Positions 36-59,499 of a DNA stretch of 64,000 nt are shown piece by piece. The stretch comes from Sipunculus nudus (lineage: Eukaryota > Annelida > Sipuncula > Golfingiida > Sipunculidae): assembly GCA_026874595.1 (NCBI GenBank), contig CM049312.1:65440929-65504928 (forward strand), given 5' to 3'. A program made the position numbers and the translations under genes. Numbering within the stretch: the stretch's first letter is position 1; every line of letters starts with the position of its first letter. A model generated the notes under the pieces. That model was given only the letters and a program-made list of their open reading frames with translations, ran no database searches and was not told the origin of the DNA.

Positions 36-70
36 CCTTTTTCTTCTTGTCTACTCTGGAGAAGCCGAAG
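36..70 (-). other. First exon of a CAP-EGF paralogue leaving the window
   Basis: Homologous to exon 0 of the intact gene (shared GCAGACCTTCGGCTT) and ending at donor GGTGAGT. The ATG seen in the other copy is replaced here (AAAGG instead of AATGG), so this copy would have to start in its next exon. Confidence 0.6.
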
Positions 71-16300: not shown

Positions 16301-17924
16301 TCTGATTAGGTTCTTTAACACAATAATTTATATTTGTTTATGAATTATTATTACCCGTAGACTTTTAAATATTTTGGAATATTACAAATGTGTTATCTTG
16401 ACATTACGATATAATAATATGTATCATAGTGCAGGGTTGGCCGTTTAATATTGAATCGAATATGTCTCGTGTTAACTCGTATCAGCATCTCATAACATTT
16501 ATTTACTCAAGATCTAGGAAAGACGTCTATGTTCACCACTGTTCCCTGATTGTCATAGCTTCGCCTCCCGCCATTTCTTACGTCCAAAATCTTTATAAAA
16601 ATTCCGTTTTTTTTTTATATTTCCTTGGTTGCCATTTTTTTCAATTCATTCTTATTCCTTACTAAGGAAAATTTTCTATTGAGACCAGTTTCATGTAGAA
16701 TTTTATAAAAGATGCCAAATATTATCTTTTGTAACAGATTGTGGATTTTACAAATATTATCAATAATATGGTTTTTAACTTAGCTTTTGATTATACATAC
16801 TATCAAGATAATTGAGGATATTATTATTAATCGGACATTTGTCCTTATAAAGTCTCCAGAACATCATGATATACAGAGTAGCGTATGTATTAAGTTTTCA
16901 AAAATAAATCAATATACCAGCCACGCATGCAATGGCTGTATGTGAAGTTGCTGCAATCCAGACCATGTTTCTTTTCTATTTCATTGTGTAAAGAGGCTGC
17001 GTTCAGGACTTACCACACAGTCCTTTGTAACACCATCCGGTACCAGAGCGGCATCCCGTACACGGGGAACCTATTTCATACAGACGACTGGTGCCGTTAG
17101 CCAGAAGGTATTTCTTCTCTACAAAGTCACCGAGCTTTGAGGATGACGGCCTGCATGAATAAATAATTATAGAACCAAAATTGCAGATCCATATTCAAAG
17201 GGGGGGGGATGAGTCCAGATAACCAAAATGAAAGTATTCAGGAACTCATGGTCTTGTGTGAACGAAAAAGTTCATATTATATGATGACCGTTTGTTCAAC
17301 CAAGATTTCTGATGCTCATCTAAAAAAAATGGAGAGGGGGGGTTTCATTAAATAGGATAAAAACAAAAGGAAAAATTTATAGAAATATATTTAATTTCAT
17401 AACTTGTGGTCTGATCGCCAATTTAACATATTTACTAGTAACATTCCATTCCAGTCTAATGTAAAGAAAAAGTCCTGAATTTATTTCCGCCCATTGAAGA
17501 AAATCAAATACAATTTATATTTTTGTGCCATCTTCTTATTTAAGAAGTATTTAAGTTGTTATGAATACATAATCGTGTTATATAGCAAAGGAAGGAAAAA
17601 GACTTATAAAATTATACTTACATTATTTTGTAATTACAGACCAGAGCTGAAGCTGTTCCATTGCAGTTGACAAATCCACACCCAACTACCAGATTAAAGG
17701 CACCGTCTTGCTGTTAAGAAAGGCAGTATGAAAGCTATATTCGACTATGGGGTTGTGAAAGCTGGTTGATGTGTCGTTTTAACAATGCCGAAAGAACGAA
17801 TTTCGATACGTTTATCCATAGCTCTGACACATCTCAATTTAATAGACATATAGCTCCAATAATCTAGTGAACTTTTTCATTAAACGGTTGTTCAACTAAA
17901 AGCATTATACAGCAGGTAGAGGTC

Positions 17925-17989
<65 letters not shown>

Positions 17990-18204
17990 GGTAGTGTTAC
18001 CCTCCGATGTAAAGTGCTCTATGGCCTACAAGCTAGGCCAGAGCGGTATAACTCTGAAGAAAAACAACACTGTTAATTCACAACAGACTGTTTCACGGGA
18101 TGCGACCCGATCATCAGGTGAATGTGAACCACATTCACCTGATGATCGGGTCGCATCCCGTGAAACAGTCTGTTGTGAATTAACAGTGTTGTTTTTCTTC
18201 AGAG

Positions 18205-18253
<49 letters not shown>

Positions 18254-18394
18254 GTAGAGTTACCCTCCATTGTAAAGTTCTCTATGGCCTTCAGACTAGG
18301 CCAGAGCGATATGACGCTGGAGAAGAGCAACACTGTTTCACCTGATGATCGGGTAAAACAGACTGTTGAGAATTTACGGTGTTTTTTTATAGCG

Positions 18395-18450
<56 letters not shown>

Positions 18451-19817
18451 TAAATCTACATAACAATTACATCGCTAGCCTCCGGTTGAGCTATGATGAA
18501 ATAGCCATTTCATACACACATCAATATTTACGAATAAAGTATATCTCAGGGGCATAAAAACGATTTTCATGAAGTACAAATATTCTCACTTAGACAGTCG
18601 ATCTAAAAAATCGCATAAGCTGACAACTTATGTCTATATTTTCCCATATCTAGCTCTACCACTGAAAGGCTTCCAGAGGTTAAATGCCGCTGATGCAATT
18701 AGCCTGGACCAGAGAAGAATGTTTATATGAGGCCTTTATGTACTCAACTGAAATAAACTTTTGTCGGGTAGGTTATATCAATATGGTAGTTGGACATTGT
18801 TTAGACTACATGTATAATAATTGTAAGCTTGTACTCCGTGAAAAAATTACTTACTATTGTGTAATGTGCAGTGTCGGTCCTATTGCCCGTCACAGCCTTT
18901 GCGGTCCAATAATTATACCCTGGACTGTTGCACTCTTTCCAGAAATCATATATACATTGCCTTAACGAGAAATTATATTATCGGGTTGAATTTATGTTGA
19001 TTCTAATTGAATCATCACAAGGTTTATATATGGCCCTTTAAACAATTTCCACATATATATTATGCGAAAATCATATATCCAGTTAGATCACTTGAAGAAG
19101 CAAAATAGGACAACAGTTTTGCAGTTGGATTTTGAAAATGTGGATATACAAATATCATGGACAGAACGTTTTGATATATTCGTATTGGCCAGTCATTTGG
19201 ATAGGCAGTGTAATATAGCGTGTATATCACAGAAAACCGTGAACGAATATATGGAGTCGATTTAGAAAAAATAAGGTCGGAAAAACAATTGTTTATAAGC
19301 GTTTAAGGAACAACATAAATATTCGGACACAGTAGACTCCAATTAGATATTTAATTTTGCAACTAGGCGTTACTTGAACCCTTTAATACAACTATACATA
19401 GGTCCTTCTACAACTGAGATTTTGAGTTTAATTGAACTTACTAAGTTTCCTCAATGGGGTTATGTAACAAATAGATACCTAAGCTTTCCTTCAGTTGGGG
19501 GCCAACCAAACCAGTGCATGTTTTGCCCGGCACTGCCGATATATCCACCGTGATCCCCAGGGCAGGTCCGGGCCAACTCCATTGCTTTCTTCTCAATATC
19601 CATGCTCCAGTACTTTAAAACAGAAAAATATTTATATAGTAAGGAAATCTATTTGCAACTTTTCGTGATCAACCAGGTATATATCAGTTTTGTTTCCTTC
19701 GTGGATATCGTACGTTATAAATTGGAGCTATCAAATGTTCCGTGCTAAATACCAAGTTAACATTCTGTACCTTACGTTATGGAGAACTTCATTGAATTAA
19801 CTTGCATTTACTTTCTA

Positions 19818-27947: not shown

Positions 27948-29000
27948 TTTTATTTTTTATAGCGTAAAATCCGCTGAAGTGCTCTAAAAACTTTACAACA
28001 CACAAACTGAAAGGATTAAAAATTGCATTAAAGTAGTTTGTGTACACATATCATTAAAAGCAGCAGTTAAAACACAAGAGCGAAATATCGTAGTAAATGT
28101 GCTGAATGATTATAGTGAAAGTATAATTAGCTACCAAAATATTGCAAAAAAAATAGGTTTTAAGTTTCTTTTTAAATGTGTCAAGATTAGAAGTTTGACG
28201 TAGGTCCCGTGGGAGAGAGTTCCACAAAGTCGGTCCTGCAACACAAAAAGCTCTATTAGCCAACAAGGTGGACCTTGTATATGGAACACACATTAATTCT
28301 TGGTTTAATGATCTCAGACGTCGCGCAGGTATGGAAGGCTGGATTAAATCTTGGAGGTATTTTGGAGCAATACCATGTTTTGCCTTGAACACCAACATAG
28401 CAACTTTAAATTTTATCCGTTGACACAGAGGGAGCCAATGACGGGCTTGCAAGACAGGTGTCATATGCTCATATCCTTTACTGCCACACAGGATTCGAGC
28501 ACAGTTTTTAACTCTCTTGAGCCTCTGTATGAGGGAAACTGGATATCCTAAATGAAGTGCATTACCATAATCAAGCTTACTGGTCACAAATGCATGGATT
28601 AAACGCTCTAGTGATGGCTTATCTAAGTAAGTTTTGATTTTGTTAATGTTGTAGAAGTGCAGGTAAGTACTCTTGCAAACGGTATAAACATGATGCTCCA
28701 TACTGGAGTATGAATCAAAATACACACCAAGGCTTCTAACATACTGAGATGGCTGGACTACTTGCCCACCGACGGACAGATTAGGCCACACAATTTCAGT
28801 GTTGCGAGGTTTTATCAGAATCACTTCTGTTTTATCATCATTCATTTTGAGTTGCTTGTTTGCCATCCACTTCCGAACGAGCTCAGTTGTATATTCCATA
28901 TATGAGATATTTGCACAGATTTCTGAAGGTCGAAAAGTGAGATAAAGCATTAAATCATCAGCATAAAAGAAAAAGATTACTCGAACAAATGATGAACAGC
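27912..29000 (-). mobile_element. 5'-truncated CR1/L2-like LINE: C-terminal reverse transcriptase fragment
   Basis: A reverse-strand open frame (29076-28054, 340 codons) contains FFYADDLMLY, the RT catalytic motif, then NDDKTEVILI and the thumb/C-terminal pattern YVRSLGVYFDS, LDYGNALHLG, ARHWLPLCQRIKFKV, WNSLPRDLR of CR1/L2-type non-LTR elements. Upstream RT motifs and the endonuclease are missing, so it is a dead 5'-truncated copy. The frame is still open, suggesting a moderately recent insertion. The 3' end runs into (ATT)n on the reverse strand at 27912-27946, typical of LINE 3' ends in this clade. The exact left end of homology near 29000 is uncertain. Confidence 0.9.
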
Positions 29001-29329
29001 ATTTCAAATTATCTGCCAGTATTATCAAATAATGTATTATTAAATATAATTCATTCATATAAAATGGATATGCCATAGGAAGATTATGGCATTGGGAATT
29101 TTATTGTCTGTGATACACATATATCAAATCATTATAATTCGTTAAAACTATATTAAGTATATTTAAAAAATAAGGTATGTTACTAGTGCAGGGTAATTCT
29201 AAACCGGGTTAAAATATATAATATTTCACAGTTAAATTGAACCAAAATCCCTTATTTTGATTATTAACATATTTTATGTTCAGTATATAAATATTGTTCT
29301 CTGAATACCAGTGGCGATTCACCATCCCC

Positions 29330-29501: not shown

Positions 29502-29559
<58 letters not shown>

Positions 29560-29583
29560 CTCTGAAGAAAAACAACACTGTTA

Positions 29584-29631
29584 ATTCACAACAGACTGTT
29601 TCACGGGATGCGACCCGATCATCAGGTGAAT
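29584..29631 (-). ncRNA. Type I hammerhead ribozyme motif, opposite strand
   Basis: Exact reverse complement of 29662-29709 in the left arm; CTGATGA at 29625-29619, GAAA at 29602-29599 on the minus strand. Confidence 0.76.
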
Positions 29632-29661
29632 GTGGTTAGAATGAAGCTTCATTCTAACCAC

Positions 29662-29709
29662 ATTCACCTGATGATCGGGTCGCATCCCGTGAAACAGTCT
29701 GTTGTGAAT
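29662..29709 (+). ncRNA. Type I hammerhead ribozyme motif
   Basis: Same 48-nt core as at 18133: CTGATGA at 29668-29674, GAAA at 29691-29694, predicted cleavage between 29703 and 29704, helix I ATTCAC/GTGAAT. Confidence 0.78.
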
Positions 29710-29795
29710 TAACAGTGTTGTTTTTCTTCAGAGTTATACCGCTCTGGCCTAGCTTGTAGGCCATAGAGCACTTTACATCGGAGGGTAACACTACC

Positions 29796-29858
<63 letters not shown>

Positions 29859-52175: not shown

Positions 52176-52685
52176 AACGACTTTGTAAAAAGTGCCTCAT
52201 AATGTCCTGCTTACATTGCATGTTTAAAAAAGTGTCTAATATGTTAGGGGGAGACCCCCTGCCATACCCTCCCTATGTACTTTTCATTCACATTAACAAA
52301 AACAAATATTTATAATTTTTATATGCCTAATAATAATAAGAATAATAATAATAATAAAAAAATTTTAATAATAATAATTATATATATGTTAAATTTACAA
52401 CATAAATGAAATGCATAATTTAAGGACTTAGTTTTCATAATACAGATCAACCTCCAACCCAGTATTACCAGTGTATATGCTAACACAAACACATGATGCG
52501 TTAAATCCGTTTATATTTACTAAAAAGTATAGCACTTAATCCCATTAAATGCATACAATTTATATTGAAGACATGAAATATAGGACTTGTATATAGCACA
52601 CGATTTTTCCGTAACTCATAGTATCGTATTCGACGACATAACAAAATGTATATTTATAGGTATGTATGTGTGTACGTACCAAATC

Positions 52686-54387
52686 GTCATCCTGAATGTG
52701 ATCCCAACATTGTCATCCTGAATGTGATCCCAACATTGTCATCCTGAATGTGATCCCGAAATTGCCATCCTGAATGTGATCCCAATATTGTCATCCTGAA
52801 TGTGGTCCCAATATTGTCATCCTGAATGTGATCCCAAAATTTTCATCCTGAATGTGATCCCAAAATTGTCATCCTGAATTTAATCCCAAAATTGTCATCC
52901 GAATGTGATCCCAAAACTGTCATCCTAAATGTGATCCCAAAATTGTCATCCTGAATTTGATCCCAAAATTGTCATCCGAATGTGATCCCAAAACTGTCAT
53001 CCTGAATGTGATCCCAAAATTGTCATCCTGAATGTAATCCCAAAATTGTCATCCTGAATGTGATCCCAAAATTGTCATCCTGAATGTGATCCCAAAATTG
53101 TCATCCGAATGTGATCCCAAAACTGTCATCCTGAATGTGATCCCAAAATTGTCATCCTGAATTTGATCCCAAAATTGTCATCCGAATGTGATCCCAAAAC
53201 TGTCATCCTGAATGTGATCCCAAAATTGTCATCCTGAATGTAATCCCAAAATTGTCATCCTGAATGTGATCCCAAAATTGTCATCCTGAATGTGATCCCA
53301 AAATTGTCATCCGAATGTGATCCCAAAACTGTCATCCTGAATGTGATAACAAAATTGTCATCCTGAATGTAATCCCAAAATTGTCATACTGAATGTGATC
53401 CCAAAATTGTCATCCTGAATGTAATCCCAAAATTGTCATCCTGAATGTGATCCCAAAATTGTCATCCTGAATTTGATCCCAAAATTGTCATCCAAATGTG
53501 ATCCCAAAACTGTCATCCTGAATGTGATCCCAAAATTGTCATCCTGAATGTAATCCCAAAATTGTCATCCTGAATGTGATCCCAAAATTGTCATCCTGAA
53601 TGTGATCCCAAAATTGTCATCCGAATGTGATCCCAAAACTGTCATCCTGAATGTGATCCCAAAATTGTCATCCTGAATTTGATCCCAAAATTGTCATCCG
53701 AATGTGATCCCAAAACTGTCATCCTGAATGTGATCCCAAAATTGTCATCCTGAATGTAATCCCAAAATTGTCATCCTGAATGTGATCCCAAAATTGTCAT
53801 CCTGAATGTGATCCCAAAATTGTCATCCGAATGTGATCCCAAAACTGTCATCCTGAATGTGATAACAAAATTGTCATCCTGAATGTAATCCCAAAATTGT
53901 CATACTGAATGTGATCCCAAAATTGTCATCCTGAATGTAATCCCAAAATTGTCATCCTGAATGTGATCCCAAAATTGTCATCCTGAATTTGATCCCAAAA
54001 TTGTCATCCAAATGTGATCCCAAAACTGTCATCCTGAATGTGATCCCAAAATTGTCATCCTGAATGTAATCCCAAAATTGTCATCCTGAATGTGATCCCA
54101 AAATTGTCATCCTGAATGTAATCCCAAAATTGTCATCCTGAATGTGATCCCAAAATTGTCATCCTGAATTTGATCCCAAAATTGTCATCCGAATGTGATC
54201 CCAAAACTGTCATCCTGAATGTGATCCCAAAATTGTCATCCTGAATGTAATCCCAAAATTGTCATCCTGAATGTGATCCCAAAATTGTCATCCTGAATGT
54301 GATCCCAAAATTGTCATCCTGAATGTATTCCCAAAATTGTCTTCCTGAATGTGATCCCAAAACTGTCATCCTGAACGTGATCCCAAG
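52686..54387. repeat. 26-bp minisatellite, about 66 units, with higher-order structure
   Basis: Consensus GTCATCCTGAATGTGATCCC + AAAATT. Variants: TTTGATCC, TGTAATCC, and a 25-bp CCGAATG form ending AAACT. Variants follow a set order, and a 20-unit block recurs with a 516-bp period (GATAAC variant at 53345 and 53861). Not coding: the unit is not a multiple of three. Confidence 0.97.
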
Positions 54388-55017: not shown

Positions 55018-55143
55018 CCTCCGCCACAAAGGTATGCGTTCACCCTCGTTCGTGTGTGTTTATGTTTGTATGTGTTCACAACATGACTCGGGCAATTATG
55101 AATGGAATCTCATGAAATGTTCAGGGCATTTCGGGAATGGGCC
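55018..55143 (+). repeat. Interspersed repeat R1, 5' half (split)
   Basis: CCTCCGCCACAAAGGTATGC ... TTCACAACATGACTCGGGCA ... GCATTTCGGGAATGGGCC; interrupted at 55144 and resumed at 57659. Confidence 0.8.
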
Positions 55144-55566
55144 TGTTACGACCCATAATGTAAAAACCGGTCTATATTGTAATAACGGCCCATAATGTAA
55201 TACAAACGACCCATAATGTAATAATGACCCATAATGTAATAAAAAACTTGTAATAACCATACCCTGCCCATATTGTAATAAAATCCCAAGTGGGTAAAAC
55301 GGCCCATATTGTAATAAAATCGCAGGTGGGTAAAACGGCCAATAATTTTATAATTCAAATATCATGCAAATTAACTTAGACAATTCAAATATCGACTTAT
55401 CATGACACGAATGTGTAAGTGAACATACAAGTATGAAAAACCACTGGATAATATAATTACTATCTGTTTAAAACGGTGACCAAGCTAATATGAGCGAAAT
55501 ATGGCCATGGTTCATGTTAATCCTCTAGTTCAGTGTTTTAATAGGATGATAAAGTATTTAAACAAG

Positions 55567-55581
55567 AATATATATATTATA

Positions 55582-55621
<40 letters not shown>
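55567..55621. repeat. (TA)n microsatellite
   Basis: Imperfect TA array inside the 2.5-kb element; another long one spans 56540-56600. Confidence 0.95.
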
Positions 55622-55624
<3 letters not shown>

Positions 55625-55894
55625 CTTTAATGGACCCAGCGCTTAATAAATCCTAGAAATATATATATAAAATATATATAAAATATTAACAGATAAAATA
55701 TACAAAACTCTCATTATCGATACATTTTAAAATATTGAAACTTTAAATTTCAGTGCGTTTTGCTCAATGTATCATAGAGACTATATTATATGATCTCTCA
55801 GAACCTCCCGAGATTTAGAAATTAAAAATATAGGTACTGCTGCAATTTTTTAGTGCCCATAAATGCATTGGTTAAGATGTCTTAGGTCAATATG

Positions 55895-56035
55895 TATAAC
55901 ACGTCGCATAGACGAGTACCAGTATCACCAGAGGAGCCGTGAGAGTGTTCACGGTCGACCCCAACCAGGGCCTGGTACTCTGCAGTAGTTCTGCAGCTGT
56001 TCATAAATACCCTTATCCTCAACTAATGAATTTGT
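55895..56035 (+). mobile_element. SINE fragment inside the 2.5-kb element
   Basis: GTTCACGGTCGACCCCAACC and the surrounding region match the SINE body after box B. Confidence 0.55.
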
Positions 56036-56164
56036 AAGTAATAAACTGCAGTTAAAAAATAAAAATCTAATTGCTAATTAATAAAAATAAATATGAAAAA
56101 TGAAAATTAATCACGGAAATTAGGAAATTACACACACACACACACATATATATATACTTGGTAT

Positions 56165-56425
56165 TAGATTAAAGTGAAATTCCGAAGGGACTGCGAGTAC
56201 TGGATGCGACCGGGGCCATGCCGAGGAGCGATGAGATTTTTCATGGTCGGACCCCATCCAGGGTGAGCGCTCCGCATAATGGGAAGGCTGTGCCCAACAG
56301 CCGTGTATCACATTCATATCACAAACGAATGCAAAATTTGGCGAGATCCTCCATGTTATGACTCAGTAATGGGGATGATTACACACCCCGGACCTGCAGG
56401 TGAGGTAGTTACCTGACACCAGGAT
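56165..56425 (+). mobile_element. SINE fragment inside the 2.5-kb element
   Basis: GATGAGATTTTTCATGGTCG, CATCCAGGGTGAGCG, GTTATGACTCAGTAATGGGG match the SINE body; the tRNA head is degraded. Confidence 0.7.
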
Positions 56426-56535
56426 ATTATATAAATGACACAAAGCGTGTGCCTTGTCACGTATTCCAAACCGAGATAGATTTATACAGATGTACAAACA
56501 GGTTAATATTAGTTAAAAAAGCGATTAATTCCACA

Positions 56536-56600
<65 letters not shown>

Positions 56601-57658
56601 TTTATTCCTTTAAACTTTGAACCATCCTACAGAGAAGGTTGAACTCAGTAGTATAAGAAAAAAACATTTGTTTTTAATTTGGCAGGGTGACAGTATTTTG
56701 TCTACCTAAAGGATCAACGAACAACTATAAAGACCTATAAGAATACCGAACGCCACCATCTGAGCCTCCCAGTAATTATTACAACTGTTTGTACAATCCA
56801 TGAAAAACCAGATGTTTGCAATCGCCGAGCGATCGCAAGGGAAGCCTCCTTCAGCCTTCTGCACCCTACCCACCACCCTAGCCCCACCCCCACCCCCACC
56901 CCACCCCTAACGGTCTATATATACATATATATATTGGCCGTTTTTACAATAATTGACGGTTAATAGATTATGGGTCGTTATTACGACTCATATTGTTATA
57001 ACGTCCAATATTGTAAAAATGGTCAATATTGCATTAGAAATTGCCTATTTTGTTGTAAAAACGGCCAATATTATAATAATGGCCAATACCGTAATAATAA
57101 ATGAGTAACAAAGTAATAACTTATGCTCACCTTTACTGTAAGCAGCATGGTCGGGGCTTAAATAAGCAAAAAGGCCAATATTGTGAAAAAAATGCAGTTT
57201 AGAAGATAATGATTAAATTCATGTCAAATTTACGTAGACAGCATAAATGTTGACTGTTTCACTGGATTTCCATTATGACTGCATCTCTTATACAAAATGA
57301 GGAACCAAAATGGCTGTAATTTTAGGTGTTCTCAAACGACATATCGCCTGTTAGATTTGGGATTCATTCTTGAGCTTAAACATATGTTATTACAATATGG
57401 GCCGTTTTTCCCACTCCCCGTTTTATTACAATATGGGCAGGGTATGATTATTACAATATGGGTTGTTTTTATTACAATATGGGCCGTTATTACAATAAGG
57501 GCCGTTTTTTATTACATTATGGGCCGTTATTACAGTATGGGCCAGTTTTATTACAATATGGGCAGTGTACGATTATTACATTATGGGTCGTTTTTATTAC
57601 AATATGGGCCGTTATTACATTATGGGCCGGTTATTACATTATGGGTTGTAACAGGGCC

Positions 57659-57785
57659 AATAAAGAATCGGTTAGATTTTGAGGTCCATCCGGCACATGA
57701 TCCGGATGCAGGAACACTATCAAGAATATTCGCAAATATATTTTCACTTATGCACGAAAGAACTTGGAATATGGACTGAATAAAC
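57659..57785 (+). repeat. Interspersed repeat R1, 3' half (split)
   Basis: Resumes with AATAAAGAATCGGTTAGATT, then GATCCGGATGCAGG and CTTATGCACGAAAGAACTTG, directly continuing the half ending at 55143. Confidence 0.8.
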
Positions 57786-58931: not shown

Positions 58932-59442
58932 GTGAATTATAAAGCATGATTTTTTTTTTGAGGGGGGGGGGGGGGGGATAAAGTGAAGCGTGTTGGTTAC
59001 GTCTGCCGGGCCTCAGGACCTAAGTTTTAGTCCTGCTAGGACTGAATTTCAAGTAGCTGCTTAAGAATTGCTTAAATATCTGAACGATATGGATGTATAT
59101 ACATATATATGTGTATTTTTATATCATATATGTATACAACCGAAATGTTCACTGTACCCAGGACCCTATTAAAAATCAGCCTACTATGCTGAATGTGCAT
59201 CCTGGTAAAAATATATTTGTATTAAATAATCAAACCATAAAACAACAAAAAACCTCTTTCTCCTGTTATGTTCCAGTATCGCACGTGTACCCCGACTTAT
59301 CCTTTTGTCCCCCCCCCCCCCCCCCCCCCCCAGGACAATAGGATCAGTGTCAGTCATTTACTTGCTCTCCCCAATACGCAAAAAGCATAATCTTGTAATG
59401 TCTCGGCTTTTCAAACCACGCCGTTAGCTTTATTTTAACAAC

Positions 59443-59490
59443 ATTCACCTGATGATCGGGTCGCATCCCGTGAAACAGTCTGTCGTGAAT
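59443..59490 (+). ncRNA. Type I hammerhead ribozyme motif, solitary copy
   Basis: ATTCAC, CTGATGA (59449-59455), same helix II, GAAA (59472-59475), helix III ACA-GTC-TGT, H17 = C at 59484, GTGAAT. Unlike the palindromic copies it has the most common cleavage triplet ending (GTC) and no inverted partner or TA arrays. Confidence 0.75.
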
Positions 59491-59499
59491 TTAAAGTGG

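Follow-up and report, generated by a model that had tools for sequence, protein, structure and literature searches.

Penelope-like elements (PLEs), in which hammerheads were reportedly described by Cervera and De la Pena in 2014, provide the closest known counterparts of the locus presented here. In the accessible part of a 2024 in vitro study, the protein of an Anolis PLE, predicted to be a dimer, is described as cutting and extending both DNA strands; the element has two internal start sites, and the stretch between them constitutes the tail (PMC11167929). According to the same portions of that report, the ribozyme of the element cuts only with the protein and is dispensable for insertion in vitro, the start site is the same for both strands, and starts occur without homology to the cut DNA, the later steps being left open (PMC11167929). 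For the PLEs of Adineta vaga, the available sections of a 2013 paper propose self-priming on an antisense template and state that experiments are needed to separate the insertion models (PMC3846280). In these two reports, as far as their accessible text goes, head-to-head inverted pLTRs and optional tails are already published for PLEs (PMC11167929; PMC3846280). Type I hammerheads with a very short helix III also occur in the retrozymes of plants and animals, which the available excerpt describes as non-autonomous and as spreading via small circular RNAs (PMC7229834).

The palindrome considered here lies in a 64,000-nt stretch of Sipunculus nudus DNA, hereafter the window, which is part of C7 of a 1.43-Gb genome. 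It consists of two inverted arms of 80 nt each (18047-18126 and 18130-18209) that are 100% complementary and separated by a 3-nt spacer. A preliminary description of the locus had noted two perfect 80-bp arms flanked by TA arrays, and inverted-repeat and Tandem Repeats Finder analyses bear this out. On the left, the insertion is bordered by a (TA)n array at 17928-17986 (29.5 copies, 100%); on the right, another one (18206-18250) separates it from an older, decayed pair. The informative feature, absent from that description, is that the outer ends of the palindrome are unlike. Alignment to a tandem unit of the element (L033) reveals that the left side exceeds the palindrome by 62 nt (17985-18046), which the right arm lacks. 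In the element coordinates used below, zero is the C of CTGATGA in an L033 unit. The minus-strand arm (18047-18126), 100% identical to L033 and a perfect inverted copy of the plus arm, covers element -9 to +70 and is continued on the same strand by the tail, +71 to +132. This first window pair is therefore composed of a minus arm spanning -9 to +132 and of a plus arm (18127-18209, also 100% identical to L033) spanning -12 to +70. The plus arm stops at start site +70, the short end, where GAGTTATA is followed by the TA repeat, and the tail stops at start site +132, where CTACCTTCTA is followed by the TA repeat. Computed folding of the tail region yields two hairpins.

Other copies are present in the window. 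The older pair has a tail arm on the minus strand (18252-18337; element 43 to 128, 85% identity by alignment) and a short arm on the plus strand (18337-18399; element -5 to 70, 74%), in which alignment and reading of the letters show helix II mostly lost. A second intact pair, matching the element at 100%, is made of a short arm on the minus strand (29555-29648; element -23 to 70) and a tail arm on the plus strand (29645-29800; element -23 to 132). To the left of this second pair, on the minus strand at 28054-29100, a 348-aa frame gives a weak match to RVT_1 (23.8 bits, under the cutoff of 29.6) and looks like a decayed LINE-type reverse transcriptase. A diverged relative, aligned at 74% over 435 columns, is found on the plus strand at 59094-59498. 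The window also contains a minisatellite at 52681-54386, whose 26-bp unit is repeated 66 times with 92% matches, as well as a 2.5-kb element-like block at 55138-57659, the ends of which are inverted arrays of a GGCCCATAATGTAATAA-type unit, with arms of 88 and 73 nt that are 91% and 89% complementary. This block is perhaps a DNA transposon with repeated ends.

On direct reading, each of the two 80-nt arms carries CTGATGA, helix II, GAAA, a helix III that is very short and a 6-bp helix I, ATTCAC/GTGAAT. The motif, AUUCAC-CUGAUGA-UCGGGUCGCAUCCCGU-GAAA-CAGUCUG-UU/GUGAAU, has a 6-bp helix I, a helix II whose base is a U.U mismatch and a helix III that has 3 bp at most and is closed by a 3-nt loop. 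The predicted cleavage site is located 3' of GUU, that is at 18174/18175 on the plus strand (element +35/+36), where the motif spans 18133-18180; the letters of the minus-strand motif (18076-18123) are identical, with predicted cleavage at 18082/18081. A U.U mismatch at the base of helix II is also reported for one axolotl motif in the available part of a retrozyme study (PMC7229834). When positions 18128-18190 were searched alone, the Rfam model RF00163 (Hammerhead_1) aligned to 18133-18180 with 23.8 bits and an E-value of 2.6e-4, a score below the curated gathering cutoff of 34. Direct reading and this alignment agree with the complete type I core previously proposed for both arms. The suggested Rfam check gave a divided answer: a single arm taken alone matches RF00163, but with a score under the cutoff, and the window yields zero Rfam matches at gathering thresholds. 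In a search of 17800-18600 up to E 10, the hammerhead was absent and the top matches were to microRNA-type hairpin models. The hairpin-type and AT-rich Rfam models proposed for the palindrome region all scored below their own cutoffs and were set aside. Because its score is under the cutoff, the feature is referred to here as a hammerhead motif and not as a proven ribozyme. In all three stretches folded with ViennaRNA, the lowest-energy structure differs from the hammerhead fold; transcripts of the palindrome, from either strand, could adopt a long hairpin as an alternative fold.

Exact copies of the 36-nt core number 1,519 (802 + 717) genome-wide, against 0 for the reversed control, which argues that it is not due to chance. 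In the diverged relative at 59094-59498, the core is intact except for a GTT to GTC change at the cleavage site, where GTC is permitted in hammerheads. Its conservation in a copy of 74% identity hints at selection, in a single copy and on a core that may also be part of a promoter (see below). Contrary to this retention, helix II is largely lost in the decayed pair at 18252-18399.

The core belongs to a larger coding element. On C1, among the 96 core matches listed, 7 of the 8 same-strand neighbours closer than 10 kb are spaced by 2.87-2.93 kb; neighbours within that distance are head to head in 9 cases and tail to tail in 0. The corresponding tandem units of about 2.9 kb carry a protein of about 710 aa (703-713 aa in the best copies), the frame being split in two in one L033 copy. 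Its motifs FDIVDFYPSI and YRDDGL are those of a reverse transcriptase. Searches of the ORF sequence against Pfam, NCBIfam and the PDB left it unrecognised. Among 8,000 scored candidates, 3,546 relatives were retained at E <= 0.001, the best named one being a protein of Solemya velum (45% identity). A GIY-YIG-type end of the protein is suggested by the motif HYIGCTEGDFKTRYNNH, conserved in the alignment; PF01541 (GIY-YIG) was detected at 1e-5 in 1 of 15 aligned relatives, the ORF itself giving no match. An AlphaFold model of the ORF (mean pLDDT 72.3, pTM 0.43) retrieved reverse transcriptases among solved structures, including the telomerase reverse transcriptase 3du5 (rank 12) and 6usr (rank 25), all with low TM-scores and together with viral RNA polymerases. 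Maps of five loci (L031-L035) display tandem or partial-tandem units bounded by pLTRs. In one of them (L032:9052-9645), a 197-aa frame was seen to be a tandem repeat of VTFNESHGKNLGYICPVPVISL. The insertions sit in TA repeats, where a target site duplication is indistinguishable from the repeat.

From these sequence features, we assign the element to the PLEs, among which it represents a new family, and regard the arms as fragments of its pLTR. The earlier suggestion that a hammerhead with a very short helix III could belong to a PLE is thus supported, and the full-length genomic copies with reverse transcriptase and GIY-YIG-type frames that it called for are present as tandem 2.9-kb units. 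The retrozyme reading was not retained. Retrozymes are short non-coding tandem repeats without a reverse transcriptase of their own, the units here being 2.9 kb long and coding, and palindromic pairs are a recurrent insertion product. The motif resides in the pLTR of an element bearing a reverse transcriptase, unlike the non-autonomous retrozymes as described in the accessible part of their study (PMC7229834).

Like Anolis PAc, of the Poseidon type, and Adineta vaga Pen, the Sipunculus element possesses a single ORF with reverse transcriptase and a putative GIY-YIG-type end, tandem units, pLTRs, head-to-head inverted pLTRs with an optional tail on one of them, and AT-rich targets (PMC11167929; PMC3846280). 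The hammerhead in the pLTR is shared with Anolis PAc (PMC11167929). Several differences emerge from the available portions of the two studies. TA arrays are the target at nearly all ends read here, the tail measures 62 nt instead of 30-40 nt, start site +70 is able to pair with the target, and the ribozyme and tail lie upstream of the ORF, whereas they overlap the ORF start in the compared PLEs (PMC11167929; PMC3846280). As for the targets, it was observed that the insertions at L007, L016 and L035 are in TA arrays adjoining a common sequence beginning TTGTTACGGAA, shown at length in L016 and L035. Perhaps this sequence represents a further repeat family, which has TA ends and is used as a target.

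The difference between the outer ends of the palindrome is not peculiar to this locus. Of 63 head-to-head pairs, 61 combine an arm that ends at +70 with one that ends near +132, the remaining two being unclear, and double-short or double-tailed pairs number 0 among the 63. Thirty-five pairs were read letter by letter and 28 were assigned by match ranges; the 61 clean ones (33 + 28) are distinct; all three pairs of the window are among them, as is one in L034. The two excluded pairs do not fit a two-start model cleanly. The tail arm of L020 ends at +124, and this end is not in TA. In the L034/L043 pair, the other outer end is found in the ORF beside a CT repeat, and this pair (L043:6592) is unexplained by the simple model. 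The latter does not explain either a multi-unit array at L035:8153, the 5' end of which is at element +68..70 within TA-rich DNA. Since inverted pLTR pairs recur at dozens of sites, the head-to-head insertion envisaged in the preliminary description is confirmed and its other proposal, a replication intermediate, is not supported: such pairs are a recurrent insertion product. Overall, the type I motif, the PLE and the head-to-head insertion remain from that first reading; the replication intermediate and the retrozyme do not.

The end rule was derived from four samples, each genome search scoring 40 of 818 to 1,934 candidates. Sample (a) comprised the 42 places listed at 100% identity, which correspond to 26 insertions, every one of them read. 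Exactly one +70 end in TA was found in 26/26. Fifteen of the 26 are single copies, with tails in 0/15, and 11 are head-to-head pairs, 9 of which have one short and one tail end; all 9 clean pairs fit the rule. From the best 40 places of sample (b), which also contained C2:7315683 and the first pair of the window, 20 further pairs were read. One short and one tail end were present in 20/20, with the tail on the left in 9 and on the right in 11. Query (c) was a synthetic palindrome with both tails, for which double-tailed pairs would rank best, and one tail only was recovered in 40/40. Query (d) was likewise synthetic, a palindrome flanked left and right by TA, for which double-short pairs would rank best; TA matched on one side only in 40/40. 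Queries (c) and (d) recovered nearly identical sets (union 41), and samples (b) to (d) are biased to short pairs with near-equal arms. All the evidence for the rule comes from finished insertions in one genome. Considering the ends themselves, 24 of the 32 tail ends read go from CTTCTA straight into TA and 5 start 1-3 nt further downstream. Part of the template is repeated at 3/32 tail ends (L057, L059, L067), as if the reverse transcriptase had slipped back at the start. Short ends are uniform save for a few differences inside the repeat (L056, L060, L067).

An artefact of assembly or amplification may be imagined, inasmuch as perfect inverted repeats adjoining simple repeats can arise artificially. 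The systematic difference of the outer ends, the decayed pair at 18252-18399 and the occurrence of pairs at dozens of sites make this explanation negligible. In another scenario, the mobile unit would be the ready-made palindrome, for instance a MITE or a transcribed hairpin that is copied whole. A uniform short structure at many sites is what this would produce, but the junctions are variable: by our own count, 25 short junctions comprise 14 distinct kinds, which indicates that pairs form anew. Arm lengths, moreover, range from the tail alone to several kb, and these ends are commonly seen in single copies too (15/26 insertions). Mobility of a preformed palindrome is thus very improbable.

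The two arms of a pair are closely related. Within pairs, 2 mismatches were counted in 6317 positions, 6 in 1778, 2 in 652, 1 in 349 and 0 in 257, plus a few gaps. Between insertions, mismatches are mostly more frequent (for example 28/5101 and 13/1777), short stretches sometimes being equally close (1 in 257). Near-identical arms imply one RNA, one source locus, or the copying of one arm from the other. The last possibility corresponds to the self-priming proposed for Adineta vaga, in which the first arm, once made, bends back at its end and is used as its own template, so that a head-to-head palindrome arises. The near identity of paired arms and their equal length in many pairs are in keeping with it, and L037 and L046 have a tail arm that exceeds the short arm in length, as this model needs. 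A copied arm should, however, share its outer end with its template, yet the ends are unlike in 61/61 clean pairs. Furthermore, three pairs have arms that each hold sequence missing from the partner, which argues that neither was copied from the other and strains the model already: the short arm extends to -778 and the tail arm to -575 in L047; the short arm extends to -575 in L039, where the tail arm is just +63..+133; and the short arm extends to -179 in L024, where the tail arm runs from about +81. Judging from these sequences, the end rule speaks against simple self-priming in the Sipunculus PLE family, and we consider this route distinctly improbable.

It may also be hypothesized that two separate RNAs from one source locus are used, one per DNA end and one per start site. 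The unlike ends, unequal arms and common source are explained equally well in this way, near-identical arms being also expected from two transcripts of one locus. Nevertheless, both DNA ends could then use the preferred +70 site, and double-short pairs number 0 among the best 40 places. In L039 and L024, the tail arm halts near the start of the other arm, as expected if the later polymerase ran up against the earlier one on a single RNA. In some other pairs, both arms end at nearly the same unusual place (-191/-187 in L008, -399/-401 in L031/L032), as if both had reached one RNA end, which is again expected from one RNA. For these reasons the use of two RNAs appears unlikely. A trailing-arm rule, by which the arm falling short of -17 would always be the tail arm, was considered and rejected: by our count, among 20 pairs, the tail arm extends further in 10, the short arm in 8, and both are equal in 2, which leaves no such rule.

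Thus, we favour, with a probability of roughly 0.6, the view that the palindrome is one PLE insertion in a (TA)n array, where both DNA ends were primed on one RNA, at +70 and then at +132. Starting from the pairs as they are documented in the sequences (two arms with unlike ends, TA on both sides, a common source and independent junctions), we infer a double-strand break, priming at +70 and then +132 on the same RNA, and joining of the cDNAs. In such a mechanism, the PLE endonuclease would cut both strands inside the TA array. The first DNA end would prime reverse transcription at +70, where the RNA sequence UUAUA would pair with the TA repeats, and this RNA would be primed a second time by the other DNA end, at start site +132. 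The two cDNAs would be extended to the 5' end of the RNA, or would halt earlier, before their ends are joined. Without the second priming, a single short-ended copy would result. The potential of the RNA to pair with TA repeats is 4-5 nt at +70 and about 2 at +132; +70 may be used first owing to this stronger pairing.

In L1 twin priming, two DNA ends prime one RNA and inverted segments result, the second site not being fixed. The mechanism envisaged here is alike in its two DNA ends on one RNA and its inverted segments. It differs in that the second priming would occur at a fixed start site, 62 nt from the first. Two observations made with the Anolis PLE, as given in the accessible part of the study, count against it. 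Starts occur there without homology to the cut DNA, whereas we invoke pairing between UUAUA and TA, and the start site does not differ between strands, whereas the Sipunculus pairs use +70 and +132 (PMC11167929).

The 5' boundary of the RNA can be approached from the short copies. Among 9 short single copies, 5 start exactly at -17, the others at -13, -13, -10 and -44. In the 20 pairs of sample (b), arms extend past -17 in 0/40, in a ranking that favoured such pairs. The A at -17 belongs to TCATTC, which fits the initiator consensus TCAKTY. At +28..+32 from this A, GGTCG fits the DPE consensus RGWYV and lies inside helix II. In the plus arm of the palindrome, a motif scan with the L033 units places this DPE-like sequence at 18149-18153 on the plus strand, the initiator being cut off. 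Together, the 5/9 single copies starting at -17 and the initiator and DPE motifs make short copies look like runs from +70 to the transcript cap. From these data, the RNA of the element would begin at about -17, just 5' of the ribozyme. Against this start count the ends of the second window pair, which reach -23, upstream of -17, and the two antisense matches of the combined initiator and DPE motif in the same 5,735 nt of L033 units that contain 1 sense match. In shuffled window sequence, the combined motif is found about 2 times per 64 kb and strand.

Arms reaching -17 would derive from RNA uncut by the hammerhead, as the short copies probably do, and cleavage would then be unnecessary for the paired product. 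The putative hammerhead cleavage may rather limit or end this product.

The one-short-one-tail rule looks new. It was not found in the literature searched, which covered few subscription papers, and it is possibly in print. Here, a simple rule on the ends holds for many natural insertion products in one type of target; it separates PLE insertion models and yields direct bench predictions for an insertion mechanism that is still unsettled. If the RNA does begin at -17, a promoter sharing bases with the ribozyme, with its initiator at -17 and its DPE-like sequence in helix II, would determine how long the short copies are. More broadly, the chances are evenly balanced that insertion by this PLE, and perhaps by PLEs generally, takes place on one RNA as a paired reaction with a fixed order, at +70 and then, optionally, at +132. 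Such a reaction would jointly explain the inverted head-to-head pLTRs, the tail on just one of them and the solo pLTRs.
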